64,000 bases of DNA from Tenacibaculum pelagium (GTDB lineage: Bacteria > Bacteroidota > Bacteroidia > Flavobacteriales > Flavobacteriaceae). The notes under the pieces were generated by a model, which saw nothing but the letters and a program-made list of their open reading frames with translations, was not told where the DNA came from and ran no database searches. Positions 3,559 to 11,332 of the stretch are shown piece by piece. Positions within the stretch are counted from its first letter, which is position 1. Each line of letters begins with the position of its first letter. The position numbers and the translations under genes were made by a program. The stretch is taken from positions 124,001-188,000 of the forward strand of contig NZ_JACGLS010000001.1 of the NCBI RefSeq assembly GCF_014062345.1. The letters run 5' to 3'.

Positions 3559-3566
3559 TATATTTG
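3559..3566 (+). promoter_or_regulatory. Promoter -7 element of secreted orphan gene
   Basis: TATATTTG fits TAnnTTTG and lies 12 bases before the ATG at 3579. It overlaps a TTG that could otherwise be read as an earlier start, which argues for the ATG. Confidence 0.6.
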
Positions 3567-3578
3567 AAAAAAAATGAT

Positions 3579-4160
3579 ATGAAAAAATTACTTATAATAC
3601 TTTTTTTAATATTTACTTCAGTTAGTAATTCACAAAGCATTAAAGAGAAAGAGTATCATCCTTATGGAAGTATAAAAGAAAGGCTAGAGTATTATGAGAT
3701 AAGACAGAAGAATTTTAAAGACTCTGATTATAAAGAAGCATTTGATGCTTCATTAAAAAAGAATAAAGAAAATCTTATAAAGAGGTTGAAAGGTAAATGG
3801 ATTTTGAGAGATATAAAGACTGACCCTTATATATACAGAAAGGAAGTTACATATTATACTAATCCACATGAATCATTACTTGAAATCACTAACGATAGTA
3901 TTTTTAAATATTTATTAAATCTAAAAACCCAAAAAAAATTATACCAAAGAAAAGAGAAAATTAATTTTATAGATATTTCATTAAATTATTGGAGTGATTG
4001 TACCAATTTAGTTTTTTCTAATAATCAGATATGGAGATTTTCATTAACTGAAGATTTTAAATTTTTAAGAACTTCTTGTGGAGAAATGAGTATTAATGGT
4101 AAGGCAGTACTTGTTTCTCATATAGGAGAAAACACAACCTTTTATGAAAAAGTAAAATAA
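3579..4160 (+). CDS. Secreted protein of unknown function
   Basis: A 193-residue protein starting MKKLLIILFLIFTSVSNSQ, a clear signal peptide with the SQ ending common in flavobacterial exported proteins. The mature part is lysine-rich at first and then has alternating polar and hydrophobic stretches suggesting beta strands. I recognise no domain. The ATG at 3579 is preferred over an in-frame TTG at 3564 because the signal peptide then begins at residue 1 and the TTG lies inside the -7 promoter box. It stands alone between typA and the histidine operon and is lower in GC than its neighbours, which suggests accessory status. Confidence 0.7.
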   Translation: MKKLLIILFLIFTSVSNSQSIKEKEYHPYGSIKERLEYYEIRQKNFKDSDYKEAFDASLKKNKENLIKRLKGKWILRDIKTDPYIYRKEVTYYTNPHESLLEITNDSIFKYLLNLKTQKKLYQRKEKINFIDISLNYWSDCTNLVFSNNQIWRFSLTEDFKFLRTSCGEMSINGKAVLVSHIGENTTFYEKVK

Positions 4161-4161
4161 G

Positions 4162-4194
4162 TTTGCATAAATCAATTTATTTTCTAAATATTTG
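4162..4194 (+). promoter_or_regulatory. Promoter of the histidine operon
   Basis: TTTG at 4162-4165 and TTTG ending the -7 region (AATATTTG, 4187-4194) are spaced as expected for Bacteroidota -33/-7 elements. The leader-peptide start follows 20 bases later. Confidence 0.55.
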
Positions 4195-4213
4195 TAGCAA
4201 CAAAAAATAAGAC

Positions 4214-4267
4214 ATGATTTTTAATCAATTACATCATCATTTTCATACTTGTACTCAAGCGAGCTGA
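4214..4267 (+). CDS. hisL: His leader peptide
   Basis: A 17-codon reading frame, MIFNQLHHHFHTCTQAS, starts at an ATG about 20 bases after the operon promoter. Four of its codons are histidine (CAT at 4232, 4235, 4238 and 4244), three in a row. It ends 31 bases before the terminator stem. The histidine run just ahead of alternative RNA hairpins is the signature of ribosome-mediated attenuation: scarce histidyl-tRNA would stall the ribosome here. The peptide itself probably has no other function. Confidence 0.88.
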   Translation: MIFNQLHHHFHTCTQAS

Positions 4268-4285
4268 AAATGTATTGATTAAAAA
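4218..4285 (+). promoter_or_regulatory. Leader RNA long stem of the his attenuator
   Basis: Bases 4218-4229 pair perfectly with 4274-4285 (12 pairs) and 4238-4245 with 4265-4272 (8 pairs). The fold encloses the leader-peptide codons and holds the antiterminator bases 4253-4261 in its apical part, so an untranslated leader would favour termination. Confidence 0.7.
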
Positions 4286-4298
4286 CAACATATATTTT

Positions 4299-4331
4299 AA
4301 AACCCGTTTGAGTAAATCAAACGGGTTTTTT
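4299..4331 (+). terminator. Attenuator terminator of the his operon
   Basis: AAAACCCGTTTGA (4299-4311) pairs with TCAAACGGGTTTT (4317-4329) around a 5-base loop and runs into T residues to 4331. The left arm also pairs with leader bases 4253-4261 (ACTCAAGCG against CGTTTGAGT at 4305-4313, nine pairs with one G-U), which lie inside the leader peptide gene just after the His codons. Stalling at His codons leaves 4253-4261 free and forms the antiterminator; completion of the peptide covers it and allows termination. Confidence 0.88.
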
Positions 4332-4395
4332 GTTTCTACAGGCGCCAAGAAATAAAACTTCACCAAACGATTTACTCAAACACATTCAATTAAAA

Positions 4396-5253
4396 ATGAG
4401 TAAATTAAAAATAGCCATACAAAAATCGGGAAGATTAAATCAGGATTCTCTTCAAATACTAAAAGAATGCGGAGTTTCTATAGACAATGGTAAGGATCAG
4501 TTAAAAGCTTCCGCAAGTAATTTTCCTATCGAAGTATTCTATCTAAGAAATGGAGATATTCCGCAATATTTAAACGACGGTGTGGTTGATGTTGCTATCA
4601 TAGGTGAGAACCTATTAATAGAAAAAGGAGAAGGAATTCAATTTGTTGAAAAGCTAGGATTTTCAAAATGTAAGGTTTCTCTTGCAATTCCTAAAAATGA
4701 AAATTATAGAGGAGTAAACTTCTTTCAAAACAAAAAAATAGCTACGTCTTACCCTGAAACCGTTAAAAAATTTCTTCAACAGAATAAAATTGAAGCTCAG
4801 TTACATATTATAAATGGTTCTGTTGAAATAGCACCAAATATTGGATTAGCAGATGGTATCTGTGATATTGTATCGAGTGGTTCTACATTGTTTAAGAATA
4901 ATTTGAAAGAGGTAGAGGTGTTATTAAAATCAGAAGCAGTTTTGGCAGTATCACCGAAAATTGAACAAGTGCAAAAAGAAATATTAGATAAGCTTCAGTT
5001 TCGAATTCAATCTGTTTTAAAGGGAAGGAAATCAAAATATGTATTGTTAAATGCACCCAATGACAAGCTTGAAAAGATCATCAGTATTTTACCAGGAATG
5101 AGAAGCCCAACTGTATTGCCTTTAGCTGAAGAAGGTTGGAGTTCTGTTCATTCCGTATTAAACAGAAATGAGTTTTGGGAAATAATAGATGAATTAAAAA
5201 ATAATGGAGCTGAAGGAATTTTAGTTTGTCCAATAGAAAAAATGGTTGTGTAA
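4396..5253 (+). CDS. hisG: ATP phosphoribosyltransferase, long form
   Basis: First enzyme of histidine synthesis, joining ATP and PRPP to give phosphoribosyl-ATP. With 285 residues it is the long HisG form that works alone without HisZ. The PRPP-binding loop is in DIVSSGSTLFKNN, and the last 80 or so residues form the ACT-like regulatory domain through which histidine inhibits the enzyme. The start was set at the ATG at 4396 because MSKLKIAIQKSGRL is the family N-terminus; an in-frame TTG at 4330 lies in the terminator T-run. Five bases separate its stop from hisD. Confidence 0.95.
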   Translation: MSKLKIAIQKSGRLNQDSLQILKECGVSIDNGKDQLKASASNFPIEVFYLRNGDIPQYLNDGVVDVAIIGENLLIEKGEGIQFVEKLGFSKCKVSLAIPKNENYRGVNFFQNKKIATSYPETVKKFLQQNKIEAQLHIINGSVEIAPNIGLADGICDIVSSGSTLFKNNLKEVEVLLKSEAVLAVSPKIEQVQKEILDKLQFRIQSVLKGRKSKYVLLNAPNDKLEKIISILPGMRSPTVLPLAEEGWSSVHSVLNRNEFWEIIDELKNNGAEGILVCPIEKMVV

Positions 5254-5258
5254 ATAGT

Positions 5259-6548
5259 ATGAAAACAATTAAAAATCCACCAATAAAAGAATGGACTTCT
5301 ATTTGTAAAAGAGCCACTTTTGATCAAGGTAATCTAGAGAAAAAAGTAATTACAATTTTAGAAGATGTTAAGCAAAATAAAAACGAAGCATTGATTCGAT
5401 ATACTGAATTATTTGATAGAGTTGAGCTTTCTTCTGTAGAAGTAACCAATGAAGAAATAGCATTGGCAAAAACTTTAGTTTCGGAAGAATTGCAAGAAGC
5501 AATTCAACTAGCAAAAAGTAATATTGGAATGTTTCATGCTTCTCAAAAAGAACAAGAAACAAAAGTAGAAACAACTAGGGGAATTACTTGTTGGAGGAAA
5601 AGTGTGGCTATTGATAAAGTAGGATTATATATTCCTGGAGGAACAGCACCTTTGTTTTCAACCATTTTAATGCTAGGTATTCCGGCAAAAATAGCGGGAT
5701 GTAAAGAAATAGTTTTGTGTACTCCGCCGAATGTAAAAGGAGAAATTGATCCAGCTATTTTGTATACCGCATCTTTAGTTGGAGTAACTAAAATATTTAA
5801 AGTTGGAGGGGCTCAAGCAATAGCTGCAATGGCATATGGAACAGAAACAGTTCCAAAAGTGTATAAGATTTTAGGTCCAGGAAATCAGTATGTAACTAAA
5901 GCAAAAGAATTGGTGCAACAAGATGGTGTTGCCATTGATATGCCAGCCGGACCAAGTGAGGTATTGGTGATTGCCGATGAAACTTCCAATCCAGGATTTA
6001 TAGCGGCAGATTTACTCTCTCAAGCAGAACATGGAGAAGACAGTCAGGTTGTGTTAGTAGGAACAGATGAGTCCGTTATTGAACAAGTTAATAATGAGTT
6101 AAAGCTTCAGCTTAATCTTTTAGACAGAAAAGAAATAGCAGAAAAAGCTCTTGGAAATAGTTTTTCAGTTGTATTAAACTCTAAAGAACAATGTATTGAG
6201 TTTAGTAATGTATACGCTCCAGAACATTTAATCATAGCATCTTTAGAGCCTTTCAATTATATCGAAGGAATCACGAATGCAGGATCTGTTTTCTTAGGGA
6301 ATTATAGTTGTGAAAGTGCAGGAGATTATGCCAGTGGAACTAATCACACATTACCAACTAACGGATGTGCTAAAAATTATAGCGGAGTTTCTTTAGACAG
6401 TTTTGTAAAGAAAATTACATTTCAGGAAGTAACTCAGCAAGGAATATTAAATATAGGAAATGCCATAGAGTTAATGGCAGAAGCTGAAGGCTTACAAGCA
6501 CACAAAAATGCAGTTACCATAAGATTAAAAGAGATTAACAATGTTTAA
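5259..6548 (+). CDS. hisD: Histidinol dehydrogenase
   Basis: A 429-residue zinc- and NAD-dependent enzyme that oxidises L-histidinol to histidine in two steps, the last reactions of the pathway. Visible motifs are VGLYIPGGTAPLFST, the GPGNQYVTKAK nucleotide region, SQAEHG with the Gln and His zinc ligands, and YAPEHL with the Glu-His catalytic pair. The ATG at 5259 follows the hisG stop by 5 bases; an upstream in-frame TTG at 5226 would overlap hisG and adds no conserved sequence. The end overlaps hisC by 8 bases. Confidence 0.95.
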   Translation: MKTIKNPPIKEWTSICKRATFDQGNLEKKVITILEDVKQNKNEALIRYTELFDRVELSSVEVTNEEIALAKTLVSEELQEAIQLAKSNIGMFHASQKEQETKVETTRGITCWRKSVAIDKVGLYIPGGTAPLFSTILMLGIPAKIAGCKEIVLCTPPNVKGEIDPAILYTASLVGVTKIFKVGGAQAIAAMAYGTETVPKVYKILGPGNQYVTKAKELVQQDGVAIDMPAGPSEVLVIADETSNPGFIAADLLSQAEHGEDSQVVLVGTDESVIEQVNNELKLQLNLLDRKEIAEKALGNSFSVVLNSKEQCIEFSNVYAPEHLIIASLEPFNYIEGITNAGSVFLGNYSCESAGDYASGTNHTLPTNGCAKNYSGVSLDSFVKKITFQEVTQQGILNIGNAIELMAEAEGLQAHKNAVTIRLKEINNV

Positions 6549-7566
6549 TTTAGAGAAAATAGTTCGTTCAAATATTCAACAGTTAAAAGCTTATTCGTCT
6601 GCGAGAGATGAATTTAAAGGCGTTGCTGATGTATATTTAGATGCCAATGAAAATCCGTTTGGAACTTTAAATCGTTATCCAGACCCACAACAAATTCGTA
6701 TTAAAGAAAAACTTTCAGAAATTAAAAAAGCCAATTTAGATCAGATTTTTGTTGGTAATGGAAGTGATGAAGTAATTGACTTAGCTTTTCGAATTTTTTG
6801 TGAACCGGGGAAAGACAAAGCTTTAACTTTTTCTCCTACATATGGTATGTATGACGTATCTGCTGGAATAAATAACATTGAGTTAATCAAACAGCGACTT
6901 TTAGCCGATTTTCAAATTAATTTAAATCAGTTACAACCATATTTAGAAATGGATGATGTAAAACTGATTTTTATATGCTCACCAAACAACCCGACGGGCA
7001 ACATTATTAACAAAGACGATATCATATATATCCTCAAAAATTTTAATGGAGTTGTTATCATTGATGAGGCTTATATTGATTTTAGCACAAAAGAATCTTT
7101 TATCAGTGAAATTAAGAATTATCCAAATTTAATCGTGAGCCAAACTTTTAGCAAAGCATGGGGATTGGCTGGAGCAAGAGTGGGTACAGCATATGCAAAT
7201 TCAAATATTATAGACCTATATAACAAAGTAAAGCCACCGTATAATGTGAGTTCTTTGAATCAGAAAGCCGTTTTAGTGAGCTTAAATAATCAATCAAAAT
7301 TCGGAATTGAAAAGAACATCATCTTAATAGAAAGAGCAAAGGTAATTGATCAATTATATAAAATCCCAATGGTGAAAAAGATATATCCTACAGAAGCCAA
7401 TTTTGTATTGATTGAAGTTGAAGATGCTGATAAATTATACAAAGACTTAGTGGAAAAGAAAATAATTACAAGAAATAGGAATACAGTTATAAACAATTGT
7501 TTACGTATCACAATTGGTAGTCCAGAAGAAAATCAAAAACTAATCAACACACTAGAAGAACTATAA
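6541..7566 (+). CDS. hisC: Histidinol-phosphate aminotransferase
   Basis: A 341-residue PLP enzyme of fold type I that transaminates imidazole acetol phosphate with glutamate. It has the DANENPFG substrate segment near the N-terminus, SPNNPTGNI in the middle, the DEAYIDF motif, and the PLP-binding lysine at residue 205 in TFSKAWGLAGARVG. It overlaps hisD by 8 bases and is followed after 3 bases by hisB, consistent with one transcript. Confidence 0.95.
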   Translation: MFNLEKIVRSNIQQLKAYSSARDEFKGVADVYLDANENPFGTLNRYPDPQQIRIKEKLSEIKKANLDQIFVGNGSDEVIDLAFRIFCEPGKDKALTFSPTYGMYDVSAGINNIELIKQRLLADFQINLNQLQPYLEMDDVKLIFICSPNNPTGNIINKDDIIYILKNFNGVVIIDEAYIDFSTKESFISEIKNYPNLIVSQTFSKAWGLAGARVGTAYANSNIIDLYNKVKPPYNVSSLNQKAVLVSLNNQSKFGIEKNIILIERAKVIDQLYKIPMVKKIYPTEANFVLIEVEDADKLYKDLVEKKIITRNRNTVINNCLRITIGSPEENQKLINTLEEL

Positions 7567-7569
7567 AAA

Positions 7570-8703
7570 ATGAAAAAAGTATTATTTATAGATAGAGACG
7601 GAACTTTAATTAAAGAACCAGCAGACGAACAAACAGATTCTTTTGAAAAGCTTGAATTTTATCCGAAAGTATTCCAAGGATTGAGTAAAATAGCCAAAGA
7701 ATTAGAATTTGAATTGGTATTGGTAACCAATCAAGATGGACTGGGAACAGAAGTATATCCAGAAAATACATTTTGGCCAGTGCACAATTTTGTAATGAAA
7801 ACGTTGAAAGAAGAAGGAATAGAATTTTCCGAAGAAATCATAGATAGAACCTTTGCAAAAGATAATCAACCTACTAGAAAACCGAATACAGGTTTATTGA
7901 ATAAGTATTTTTCTGAAGAATATGATTTAGCCAATTCATTTGTAATTGGAGATCGATTAACGGATGTTGAACTTGCCAAGAACCTAGGTTCAAAAGGAAT
8001 TTATATTAATGATGAAACTTATTTTGGTGCTGATGAAATAACTGTTAAAAGAAGCGAGCTAGATGAGTTCATAGCATTAGAAAGTAATGACTGGAATACA
8101 ATATACGAGTTTCTTAAACTAAAGGACAGGTTTGCTACTATAGAAAGGAATACGAATGAAACCAAGATAAAAATAGCCGTTAATTTAGACGGAACAGGAA
8201 AGAGTGATATCAATACAGGAATTGCTTTTTTTGATCATATGTTAGATCAAATCGCAAGACACGGGCAAATGGATTTAACGATTAAGGTAAATGGAGATTT
8301 AGATGTTGATGAGCACCACACAATAGAAGATACAGCAATAGCTTTAGGAGAGGTTTTTGCAAAAGCTTTAGGTAATAAGTTAGGTATAGAGCGTTATGGG
8401 TTTTGTTTACCTATGGACGATTGTTTGTCTCAGGTTGCTATAGATTTTGGTGGACGAAACTGGTTGGTTTGGGATGCTGAATTTAAACGTGAAATGATTG
8501 GTAAAATGCCAACGGAAATGTTCTATCACTTTTTTAAATCATTTACCGATGGAGCAAAATGTAATTTGAATATAAAAGCAGAAGGCACCAATGAACACCA
8601 CAAGATAGAAGCAATATTTAAAGCATTTGCAAAGGCTATTAAAGTGGCTGTTAAAAGAGATACCTCTAAGATGATTTTACCATCAACCAAAGGAACATTA
8701 TAA
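7570..8703 (+). CDS. hisB: Bifunctional histidinol-phosphatase / imidazoleglycerol-phosphate dehydratase
   Basis: A 377-residue fusion of two histidine-pathway enzymes. The N-terminal HAD phosphatase has the catalytic DRDGT motif with Asp8 and Asp10. The C-terminal dehydratase starts near residue 185 and shows [21 protein letters not shown] and NEHHKIEA, which bind two manganese ions. Unlike E. coli HisB, the phosphatase loop before RKP contains no cysteines ([15 protein letters not shown]), so the structural zinc site is absent. I recall the same loop type in other Bacteroidota HisB proteins. Confidence 0.95.
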
Positions 8704-8704
8704 A

Positions 8705-9292
8705 ATGATAGTCATTATAAAATATAACGCTGGAAACATTCGATCTGTACAAAACGCAGTTGCTCGTTTGGGATATGAAAGTATCATAACCGACAACCCA
8801 AAAGAGATTAGAGAAGCTACTAAAGTAATTTTTCCAGGAGTTGGAGAAGCCAGTTCAGCTATGAGTTATCTAAGGGAAAGAAAGCTAGATGAAGTTATTT
8901 TGTCTTTAAAACAACCTACGTTAGGTATTTGTTTAGGATTACAATTAATGTGTAAATCTTCAGAAGAAGGAAATACTATTTGTTTAGGAATTTTTGATAC
9001 GGAAACAAAACAGTTTCTACCCGAAGATAAGGTACCGCATATGGGGTGGAATAGTTTTTCAAAAAAAGAAGACACTACCTTGCTAAAAGGAATAAACTCA
9101 ACTGATGATGTATATTATGTACATGGCTATTATGCAGAAACCTGCAACGAAACTATTGCTACTTGTAATTATATCAAAGAGTTTAGTTCAGTAATGCAAA
9201 AAAATAATTTTTACGCGATGCAGTTTCATCCAGAAAAGTCGGCAAGTGTGGGAGAACAATTATTAAGGAATTTTTTAGAATTAGAAAAATGA
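8705..9292 (+). CDS. hisH: Imidazole glycerol phosphate synthase, glutaminase subunit
   Basis: A 195-residue class I glutamine amidotransferase that supplies ammonia to HisF. The nucleophile Cys76 sits in GICLGLQLM, and His175 and Glu177 in QFHPEKS complete the triad. It starts one base after hisB ends and overlaps hisA by 4 bases (ATGA). Confidence 0.95.
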
Positions 9293-10002
9293 GAATTATA
9301 CCAGCTATAGATATTATTGAAGGAAAATGTGTTCGTCTTACAAAAGGAGATTATAATACAAAGAAAATATATAATGAAAACCCAGTAGAGGTTGCCAAAG
9401 AGTTTGAAGCCAACGGAATTCAATACTTACATTTAGTAGACCTAGATGGAGCCAAATCGAGTAAAATAATCAACTATAAAGTGTTAGAGGAAATAGCTTC
9501 TAAAACTAGTTTAAAAATAGATTTTGGAGGAGGTTTGAAGTCTGATGAAGATTTGAATATAGCTTTTGAATCAGGAGCAAGTCAAATAACAGGAGGAAGT
9601 ATTGCTGTAAAAAAACCAGATACTTTTATCAATTGGTTATCAAAATATGGAAGTAGTAAAATTATACTGGGGGCAGATTGTAAAAATAGAAAAATAGCAA
9701 CCCATGGATGGATGCAAACATCGGAAATAGATGTAGTAGATTTTATTAAGGATTATGAAGAGATAGGGGTGCAAAATGTTATTTGTACTGATGTTGCTAA
9801 AGATGGAATGTTACAGGGGACTTCTAATAATTTATACAAAGAAATTCTTAAGAATTCCAAGGTGAATTTAATAGCAAGTGGAGGAGTTTCTAATATAGAA
9901 GACTTATACAAAGTTAAAGAGATTGGGTGCGAAGGAGTCATTATAGGAAAGGCGATTTACGAAGGTAGAATAACGCTAAAAGAATTACAGGAATTATGCT
10001 AA
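9289..10002 (+). CDS. hisA: ProFAR isomerase
   Basis: A 237-residue (beta/alpha)8 barrel that isomerises the aminoaldose ProFAR to the aminoketose PRFAR. Catalytic Asp8 is in [13 protein letters not shown] and the second acid, Asp130, in LGADCKNRK. The two phosphate-binding half-barrel motifs are [11 protein letters not shown] and ASGGVSN. It overlaps hisH by 4 bases and hisF by 7 bases. Confidence 0.95.
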
Positions 10003-10748
10003 AGAAAAGAATCATACCTTGTTTAGATATAAAAAACGGAAGAACCGTTAAAGGAGTAAACTTTGTTGATATCAAAGATGCTGGTGATCCCATTGAATTA
10101 GCAAAGAAATATGTAAAAGATGGAGCAGATGAATTGATTTTTTTAGATATTACTGCTACACTAGAAGATAGAAAAACCTTAATAAGTTTAGTTGAAAAAA
10201 TAGCTGAAGAAATAAATATTCCGTTTACTGTTGGTGGTGGAATTAGTTCTGTGGAAGATGCATTAGCTCTGATTAAGGCTGGCGCTGATAAAGTTAGTAT
10301 TAACTCTTCGGCGGTAAAAAATCCACAACTAATAGTTGATTTAAAAGAACGTTTCGGAAGTCAATTTGTGGTGGTGGCAATAGATACAAAAAGTGTAGAT
10401 GGAAGGGGTAAGGTATTTACCAAAGGAGGTACTTATGAAACCAGATGGGAAACCCTACAATGGGCAAAAGAGGTTGAGGAATTAGGTGCTGGTGAAATAC
10501 TATTAACCTCGATGAATAGTGACGGAACTAAGGGTGGGTTTGATATTGACATAACAAAGAAAGTTAGTGAACTAGTAAATATACCAGTGATAGCCTCTGG
10601 TGGTGCAGGGAAAGTAAAACACTTTGAAGAGGTTTTTACAAAAACTCAAGCCAGTGCAGGATTAGCAGCGAGTATTTTTCACTTTGGAGAGATTCCAATA
10701 CCAAGATTGAAAGAAGCATTAAAAACAAACAACATACTAGTAAGATGA
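9996..10748 (+). CDS. hisF: Imidazole glycerol phosphate synthase, cyclase subunit
   Basis: A 250-residue barrel homologous to HisA that uses ammonia from HisH to make imidazole glycerol phosphate and AICAR. Catalytic Asp11 ([14 protein letters not shown]) and Asp130 ([11 protein letters not shown]) are at the canonical positions. Phosphate-binding sites are TVGGGISS and ASGGAGK. It overlaps both neighbours by a few bases, as expected for subunits and consecutive enzymes made from one mRNA. Confidence 0.96.
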
Positions 10749-11332
10749 ATATAAATTTCAATAAAAATAAAGACGGATTAGTCCCAATAATTATACAAAA
10801 CAATAATACTCTACAAGTGTTAATGCTAGGGTACATGAATGAAGAAGCTTTTATAAAGACTAAAAAAGAAGGAAAAGTTACTTTTTATAGTAGAAGTAAA
10901 AATAGATTATGGACAAAAGGGGAAACCTCAGGGAACTATTTGTTTGTAAAAGATATTTTATTGGATTGTGATAATGACACTCTTTTAATAAAAGCTGATC
11001 CGGTCGGACCAACATGTCACAAAGGTTTTACATCATGTTTTGCAGAAGAAACATCTAAAGGTTTTTTATATAGTTTAGAAAGTACAATACACAATAGAAT
11101 AGACAATAATATAGAAGATTCGTATACCAATAAATTATTCAAAAGAGGAATTAACAAGGTTGCTCAAAAGGTAGGTGAAGAGGCTATAGAATTAGTTATA
11201 GAGGCTAAAGATGATAATGAAGAACTATTTAAAAATGAAGCTGCTGATTTATTATACCACTACATTATTCTTTTAAAAGCAAAGGGTTATAAAATAGAGG
11301 ATATTGAAAATGTATTAAAGCGAAGAAATTGA
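10745..11332 (+). CDS. hisIE: Phosphoribosyl-AMP cyclohydrolase / phosphoribosyl-ATP pyrophosphatase
   Basis: A 195-residue bifunctional enzyme for steps two and three of the pathway. The N-terminal cyclohydrolase domain carries the metal-binding [13 protein letters not shown] and PTCHKG motifs; the C-terminal pyrophosphatase domain from about residue 110 shows [14 protein letters not shown] and NEAADLLYH. It overlaps hisF by 4 bases and is the last gene of the operon. The stop lies inside a foldback that also forms the left end of the following cassette-like element. Confidence 0.95.

Follow-up and report, generated by a model that had tools for sequence, protein, structure and literature searches.

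A predicted ribosome-mediated attenuator before the histidine operon of Tenacibaculum pelagium and its counterparts across the phylum

That his and other operons can be attenuated through leader peptides is well established in textbooks. In the enteric his attenuator, a leader with a run of His codons is followed by competing antiterminator and terminator structures, and hisG is the first gene of the operon. Beyond the enteric bacteria, short ORFs with a His-codon stretch have been described in bacilli, in the terminator-bearing 5' regions of hisZ and of a second hisS, by a survey stating that before this find no amino-acid leader-peptide system was known beyond Proteobacteria and Actinobacteria (Naville and Gautheret 2010, PMC2965389). 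Those leaders resemble the present one in combining a His-codon ORF with a terminator, but they precede other genes in another phylum. Within the same phylum, Bacteroides thetaiotaomicron was reported to have long 5' UTRs with sORFs reminiscent of attenuation leader peptides, with BT_4401 as an example, although histidine is absent from the main text of that article (PMC7366714). In the same family and before the same gene, a transcriptome study of Flavobacterium psychrophilum described strong clues for leader-peptide attenuation before amino-acid operons, together with structured 5' elements of hisG and pheA that are shared between genera and lack an Rfam match (ISME Commun 2021, PMC9723704). 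The section concerned gives no structure, covariation or phylum-wide survey, unlike the analysis presented here. The idea of attenuation is therefore not wholly new, being partly published for F. psychrophilum; as far as the literature searched goes, the phylum-wide covariation and a terminator-less variant in one family are new. Titles and abstract openings searched described no phylum-wide his attenuator, and an earlier mention of Bacteroidetes is possible in Lopatovskaya et al. 2010 (Mol Biol 44:128).

The window, a stretch of 64,000 nt of the T. pelagium genome, carries on its + strand every part of the attenuator that an earlier note had proposed before the his operon. The leader peptide ORF MIFNQLHHHFHTCTQAS (4214..4267) runs from an ATG at 4214 to a TGA at 4265-4267 and comprises 17 codons without a Shine-Dalgarno sequence. 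It contains the HHHFH motif read in that note, encoded by CAT CAT CAT TTT CAT at 4232..4246, so that four of five codons specify His (4232-4240 and 4244-4246) at the predicted stalling site. Among the 1069 sORFs of the window (ATG-started, 6-60 aa, 528 and 541 on the two strands, nested starts counted separately), this leader is the only one with four or more His in five residues. The antiterminator segment ACTCAAGCG (4253..4261) lies inside the last leader codons and pairs with CGTTTGAGT (4305..4313), a segment of the terminator left arm that has either 4253-4261 or, for most of its length, the right arm as partner. This pairing past the His codons, also proposed earlier, comprises nine pairs, including one G.U. 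The intrinsic terminator (4299..4331) stands between the leader and hisG, 31 nt beyond the leader stop, with a stem of 13 pairs (4299-4311/4317-4329), a loop at 4312-4316, a T-run at 4326-4331 and a predicted energy of -17.9 kcal/mol. The region 4205-4345 folds with z = -5.97, and none of 200 shuffles folded equally well.

Directly 3' of these elements lies the complete operon hisG-D-C-B-H-A-F-IE, which ends at 11332. The first gene, hisG (4396..5253, start ATG 4396), matches NCBIfam TIGR00070 and TIGR03455; hisD, hisC, hisB, hisH, hisA, hisF and hisIE follow at 5259..11332, each ORF with an NCBIfam match above cut-off and hisD in a frame that is open from 5226 with its first ATG at 5259. The gene upstream of the leader (3564-4160) encodes a 198-aa protein with a signal-peptide-like start and without an NCBIfam match. 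Compared with the enteric his attenuator (Rfam His_leader, RF00514), the locus is alike in its His-run leader, its competing helices and hisG as first gene; it differs in its short leader (17 codons, four of them His) and in lacking a Shine-Dalgarno sequence. No sequence relationship emerged: the RF00514 model reached its gathering score nowhere in the window and had no match at 4150-4400 even with E values up to 5 allowed. We regard the element as very probably a ribosome-mediated transcription attenuator of the trp/his type.

The predicted switch was examined with a folding model in which the RNA is made as far as the terminator loop and the ribosome edge is set 12 nt past the A-site codon's first base, a footprint taken from general background. 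In this model the probability that the antiterminator of the window forms is 0.18 without a ribosome, 0.99-1.00 for a ribosome at each of the four His codons and 0.00 for one at the stop codon, which agrees with the geometry claimed in the earlier note, namely that a stall on the His codons exposes 4253-4261 and a ribosome at the stop codon covers it. With the ribosome stalled on the fourth His codon, the antiterminator is partly masked and the modelled structure falls to -9.2 kcal/mol. The same behaviour (P >= 0.5 when stalled on the first His codon, P < 0.2 at the stop) is predicted at 133 of the 140 non-redundant loci compared below, a figure that reflects a lenient model, because the best leader/arm duplex is scored and the RNA stops at the loop. 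Once the full terminator has been made, it is part of the minimum-energy structure at every modelled ribosome position. On this modelling the decision must be kinetic.

By HisG, the closest relatives among the matches listed are Tenacibaculum and other Flavobacteriaceae, and at least 80 named genome loci with close HisG make up the near-relative set. A leader ORF with a His run precedes hisG in 79 of the 80 named loci listed, and the same 79 carry a terminator of -14.4 kcal/mol or better; the 80th (L014) has just 180 nt of upstream sequence. The terminators of these relatives are mostly CCCGTTTGA...TCAAACGGG or a G.U variant. The His run and the antiterminator pairing, whose absence from relatives the earlier note had named as fatal to its reading, are both conserved, and this conservation makes attenuation at the window locus very likely.

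Conservation also extends to the leader end. QA or RA near the C-terminus, a shared ending of the form Q-A-x, is found in 106 of 109 Flavobacteriaceae leaders, and all 106 leaders with this motif use GCG for the Ala codon that lies in the antiterminator; GCG accounts for 12 of 207 Ala codons (6%) in ten genes of the window. Because GCG is fixed at the codon level, the Q-A-x ending is best read as a feature of the RNA. Two loci, L040 and L066, have a TAG stop inside the antiterminator, so that the peptide loses its conserved QAR and the pairing is kept, apparently a natural separation of peptide function from RNA function. Compensatory changes between 4253-4261 and 4305-4313, which the earlier note had suggested looking for, are present at few positions. 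Among 114 loci of the window type (L054 and L078 being without an anchor), C-G is replaced by U-A at pair 2 in two loci, and pair 6 is A-U in 78, G.U in 27 and G-C in 8. So small a number of compensated positions would be expected of a left arm that has two pairing partners; this arm is nearly invariant in the window's family, and formal covariation inside the family is therefore thin.

A HisG match was obtained in 252 of the 296 genomes searched across the phylum. Upstream sequence was examined in 110 genomes from 24 families, picked from the better-scoring HisG matches with some skipped; the sample does not extend to families whose HisG matches were all remote (E about 1e-20 to 1e-40; f12, f13, f17 and others). 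By a loose rule, a His-rich sORF precedes hisG in 101 of the 110, and it is accompanied by a terminator of -9 or better in 81, or in 77 after subtraction of four judged spurious. No leader was found by the rule used in nine genomes, and 20 more have a leader and no terminator.

Terminator left arms differ between families (CCCGTTTGAG, ACCGTCTGAG, GGCTTACC, GGCTTGCC, CCCCGGC and GGCATTCC), and covariation could therefore be tested without an alignment, by pairing each left arm with its own leader end, with leader ends from other families and with dinucleotide-shuffled leader ends. Duplex statistics cover 140 of 161 loci, leaving out L143, L145, L146 and L185 (spurious leader or terminator), the copy of the window and 16 redundant rows. 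Over these non-redundant loci the mean duplex between left arm and leader was -14.9 kcal/mol for the own leader, against -9.1 for other-family and -7.9 for shuffled leader ends. Outside the window's family, the own pairing ranked in the best 5% of shuffles at 43 of 47 loci and in the best 5% of swaps at 34 of 47. Inside it, the corresponding figure for shuffles was 85 of 93; the own pairing beat every other-family leader at just 19 of 93, because some f2, f34 and f38 loci carry similar motifs. All loci taken together, the best 5% of swaps included the own pairing 77 times in 140, and at L125, L114 and L153 the pairing was weak or shuffle-like. In most of family f2 the antiterminator spans the leader stop codon. 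The comparison thus points to an antiterminator that excludes the terminator and has been retained by compensating changes through sequence divergence across the phylum, with a signal that is thin inside the family and clear across families.

A further element, the 12-pair stem that the earlier note had invoked to explain shut-off without translation, fared unevenly. Its predicted arms, TTTTTAATCAAT (4218..4229) and, after the leader stop codon, ATTGATTAAAAA (4274..4285), both on the + strand, form a strong stem in this genome, where it accounts for the low antiterminator probability modelled for RNA free of ribosomes, but they are conserved only in part. The stem ranks in the best 5% of shuffles at 54 of 140 loci (47 of 93 inside the family, 7 of 47 outside), and the modelled antiterminator probability without a ribosome is below 0.3 in just 34 of 93 Flavobacteriaceae loci and 0.3 or higher in the other 59. 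The stem would therefore explain untranslated shut-off in T. pelagium, and the model does not support it as a general device elsewhere.

A putative promoter (4162..4194, + strand) is formed by TTTG at 4162-4165 and AATATTTG at 4187-4194, the latter ending 19 nt before the leader ATG and differing at one position from TAnnTTTG, which we take to be the promoter consensus. Transcription would accordingly start at about 4198-4203, just 5' of 4214. An exact TAnnTTTG occurs within 75 nt 5' of the leader start at 40 of 93 Flavobacteriaceae loci and at 1 of 65 in a control stretch, and since these boxes are enriched just upstream, the leader probably lies near the mRNA 5' end in the family. Initiation without a Shine-Dalgarno sequence, as noted earlier for this leader, is upheld by the comparison: SD-like 4-mers at -20 to -5 are present in just 2 of 93 Flavobacteriaceae leaders and 1 of 47 others. 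Position -3 is a purine in 89% of Flavobacteriaceae leaders (A 48%, G 41%). This fits the A reported at that position in Flavobacterium johnsoniae, in which, as in its phylum, translation is described as mostly started without Shine-Dalgarno sequences (PMC6847099).

Three other readings of the locus were weighed. The hairpin might do no more than terminate the upstream gene 3564-4160, with the His-rich ORF and the complementarity arising by accident, and a terminator some 140 nt past a gene on the same strand is unremarkable. We consider this extremely improbable, given that 79 of the 80 listed relatives and much of the phylum share the His leader, the order of the elements and the pairing before hisG, and that promoter-like boxes are enriched just 5' of the leader. 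A different sensor, be it a T-box for uncharged tRNA-His, a riboswitch or an RNA-binding protein, has in its favour that one regulated gene can use different sensors across lineages, as the bacilli survey points out (Naville and Gautheret, PMC2965389). In the window, however, no Rfam family reaches its gathering score; when E values up to 5 are allowed, 4150-4400 gives 16 weak matches, including Trp_leader (19.5 of 41 bits), PyrR and a purine riboswitch, but each stays below its own gathering score and none is a T-box. The conserved feature is a run of His codons sharing a frame with a start and a stop codon, which makes another sensor very unlikely.

It is likewise highly unlikely that the active agent is the leader peptide itself, nascent or free, with its C-terminal QA and one further residue. 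Such an arrest peptide would fit the QA or RA ending that nearly all Flavobacteriaceae leaders share; yet the fixation of GCG at the codon level explains this motif through the RNA, L040 and L066 lose QA through a stop codon and keep the pairing, and the antiterminator runs across the stop codon in most of f2.

The ribosome-mediated attenuator thus remains the preferred reading. The sequence and its comparison across genomes show its parts and geometry, the conservation of these parts and the covariation between the competing helices; stalling, termination and a response to histidine in the cell are what we infer from them. The ribosome would begin the leader at 4214 without a Shine-Dalgarno sequence. 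With ample charged His-tRNA it would reach the stop codon and mask 4253-4261, whereupon the terminator at 4299-4329 would form and RNA polymerase would be released before hisG. With His-tRNA in short supply, it would halt on the His codons, opening the 12-pair stem and leaving 4253-4261 free to pair with 4305-4313 before the right arm exists, so that no terminator would form and the operon would be transcribed.

Family f23 has His leaders of a different kind. Of 58 genomes searched, 55 had a match, 44 upstream regions were examined and 40 were retained, with L203 (which has a terminator) and L194, L204 and L226 (no leader by the rule used) left out; the terminator-less set consists of L179-L183, L186-L188 and L193-L228 minus these four. 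All 40 loci have a leader with 4-12 His, and no recognisable intrinsic terminator was found in any of them. The stretch between leader and hisG (56-127 nt, the gap having been ended at a wrong, earlier non-ATG start in L210, L211, L212, L227 and L228) has a C content of 26.9% and a G content of 7.1%, C outnumbering G by a factor of three or more at 35 of 40 loci; a control stretch upstream of the same leaders has 16.9% C and 17.2% G, with such an excess in 0 of 40. In the 70 nt upstream of 71 other genes from eight f23-type genomes, C is at least three times G in four, and all fall short of the his median for C minus G. In its C-rich, G-poor composition the stretch before hisG resembles a Rho loading site. 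At 28 of the 40 loci the in-frame GTG or ATG of the leader lies 4-5 nt past a promoter-like box that has no more than one mismatch and is exact in 18. Such a box was present at 44 of 2000 random upstream positions, and this spacing suggests that the f23 leader mRNA is leaderless.

It is conceivable, though on balance doubtful, that f23 has kept the His-codon leader as a sensor and replaced the output, an almost or wholly leaderless mRNA being attenuated through Rho where the Flavobacteriaceae use a terminator hairpin. The f23 stretch offers no evident way for a stalled ribosome to keep Rho off. Consensus folding of 18 f23 leaders did not yield a convincing common structure (5 pairs, -0.71 kcal/mol), and folding of the leader end exceeded codon shuffles at just 6 of 40 loci; a stem across the leader stop codon ranked in the best 5% of shuffles at 17 of 40, which is suggestive only. 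One f23 locus, L203 (G304), has a terminator, AAACCCGTCTGA...TCAGATGGGTTT, that resembles the Flavobacteriaceae type, behind a leader ending in YQAGI; transfer or assembly mixing is possible in this case.

That a second Rho gene accompanies the terminator-less leader was considered and rejected, the two showing no clean match. Two strong Rho matches occur in f23, f50, f21, f42, f29 and f38, of which f29 and f38 have terminators, and f3 and terminator-less f8 genomes have one Rho. In the six families with two matches, a Rho-like protein of 404-421 aa stands beside the canonical Rho (L244, L245, L246, L247 and G061:C5:478764-479900).

Elsewhere in the phylum, leaders without a terminator by the detector were found in f3 (5 of 5), f8 (4 of 7) and single loci of f10, f42 and f50; f3 and f8 are without the strong C bias of f23. 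The f3 loci L156, L157, L162, L163 and L173 have His leaders with weak or no terminator hairpins before hisG. In f8, the leaders of L121, L127, L132 and L133 end in HHFHHSS and have no terminator, and their stop codon falls within a short hairpin (CATTCCTCTTGAGGAGGAATA in L121). This f8 type is possibly another output variant.

The T. pelagium genome itself offers a second candidate. Locus L230 (G000:C1, near 822000), 5' of a gene with a chorismate-binding domain, has the sORF MVKQLLNNWWWKSRNLR followed by the terminator AAAAGGCTTATCTCATGATAAGCCTTTTTT and is a probable Trp attenuator, with the same order of leader and terminator as the his locus and another amino acid. One quick test gave a weak pairing between its leader end and terminator arm (-7.3 kcal/mol). 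Another amino-acid operon of this genome (L229) showed no obvious run of control codons; ilvD sits close behind another gene, and the frames of the two homoserine dehydrogenase genes extend past the ends of the loci analysed.

Ribosome-mediated attenuation needs a first ribosome close behind RNA polymerase, a requirement established for enteric systems. Because of this requirement, a his attenuator in 77 of 110 genomes predicts timed transcription and translation in bacteria that mostly initiate without Shine-Dalgarno sequences. These his leaders and their RNA have no Rfam family. The predicted attenuator is of note for its breadth in a phylum where most starts lack a Shine-Dalgarno sequence and for the terminator-less branch, which would allow two outputs coupled to the same sensor to be compared in nature.
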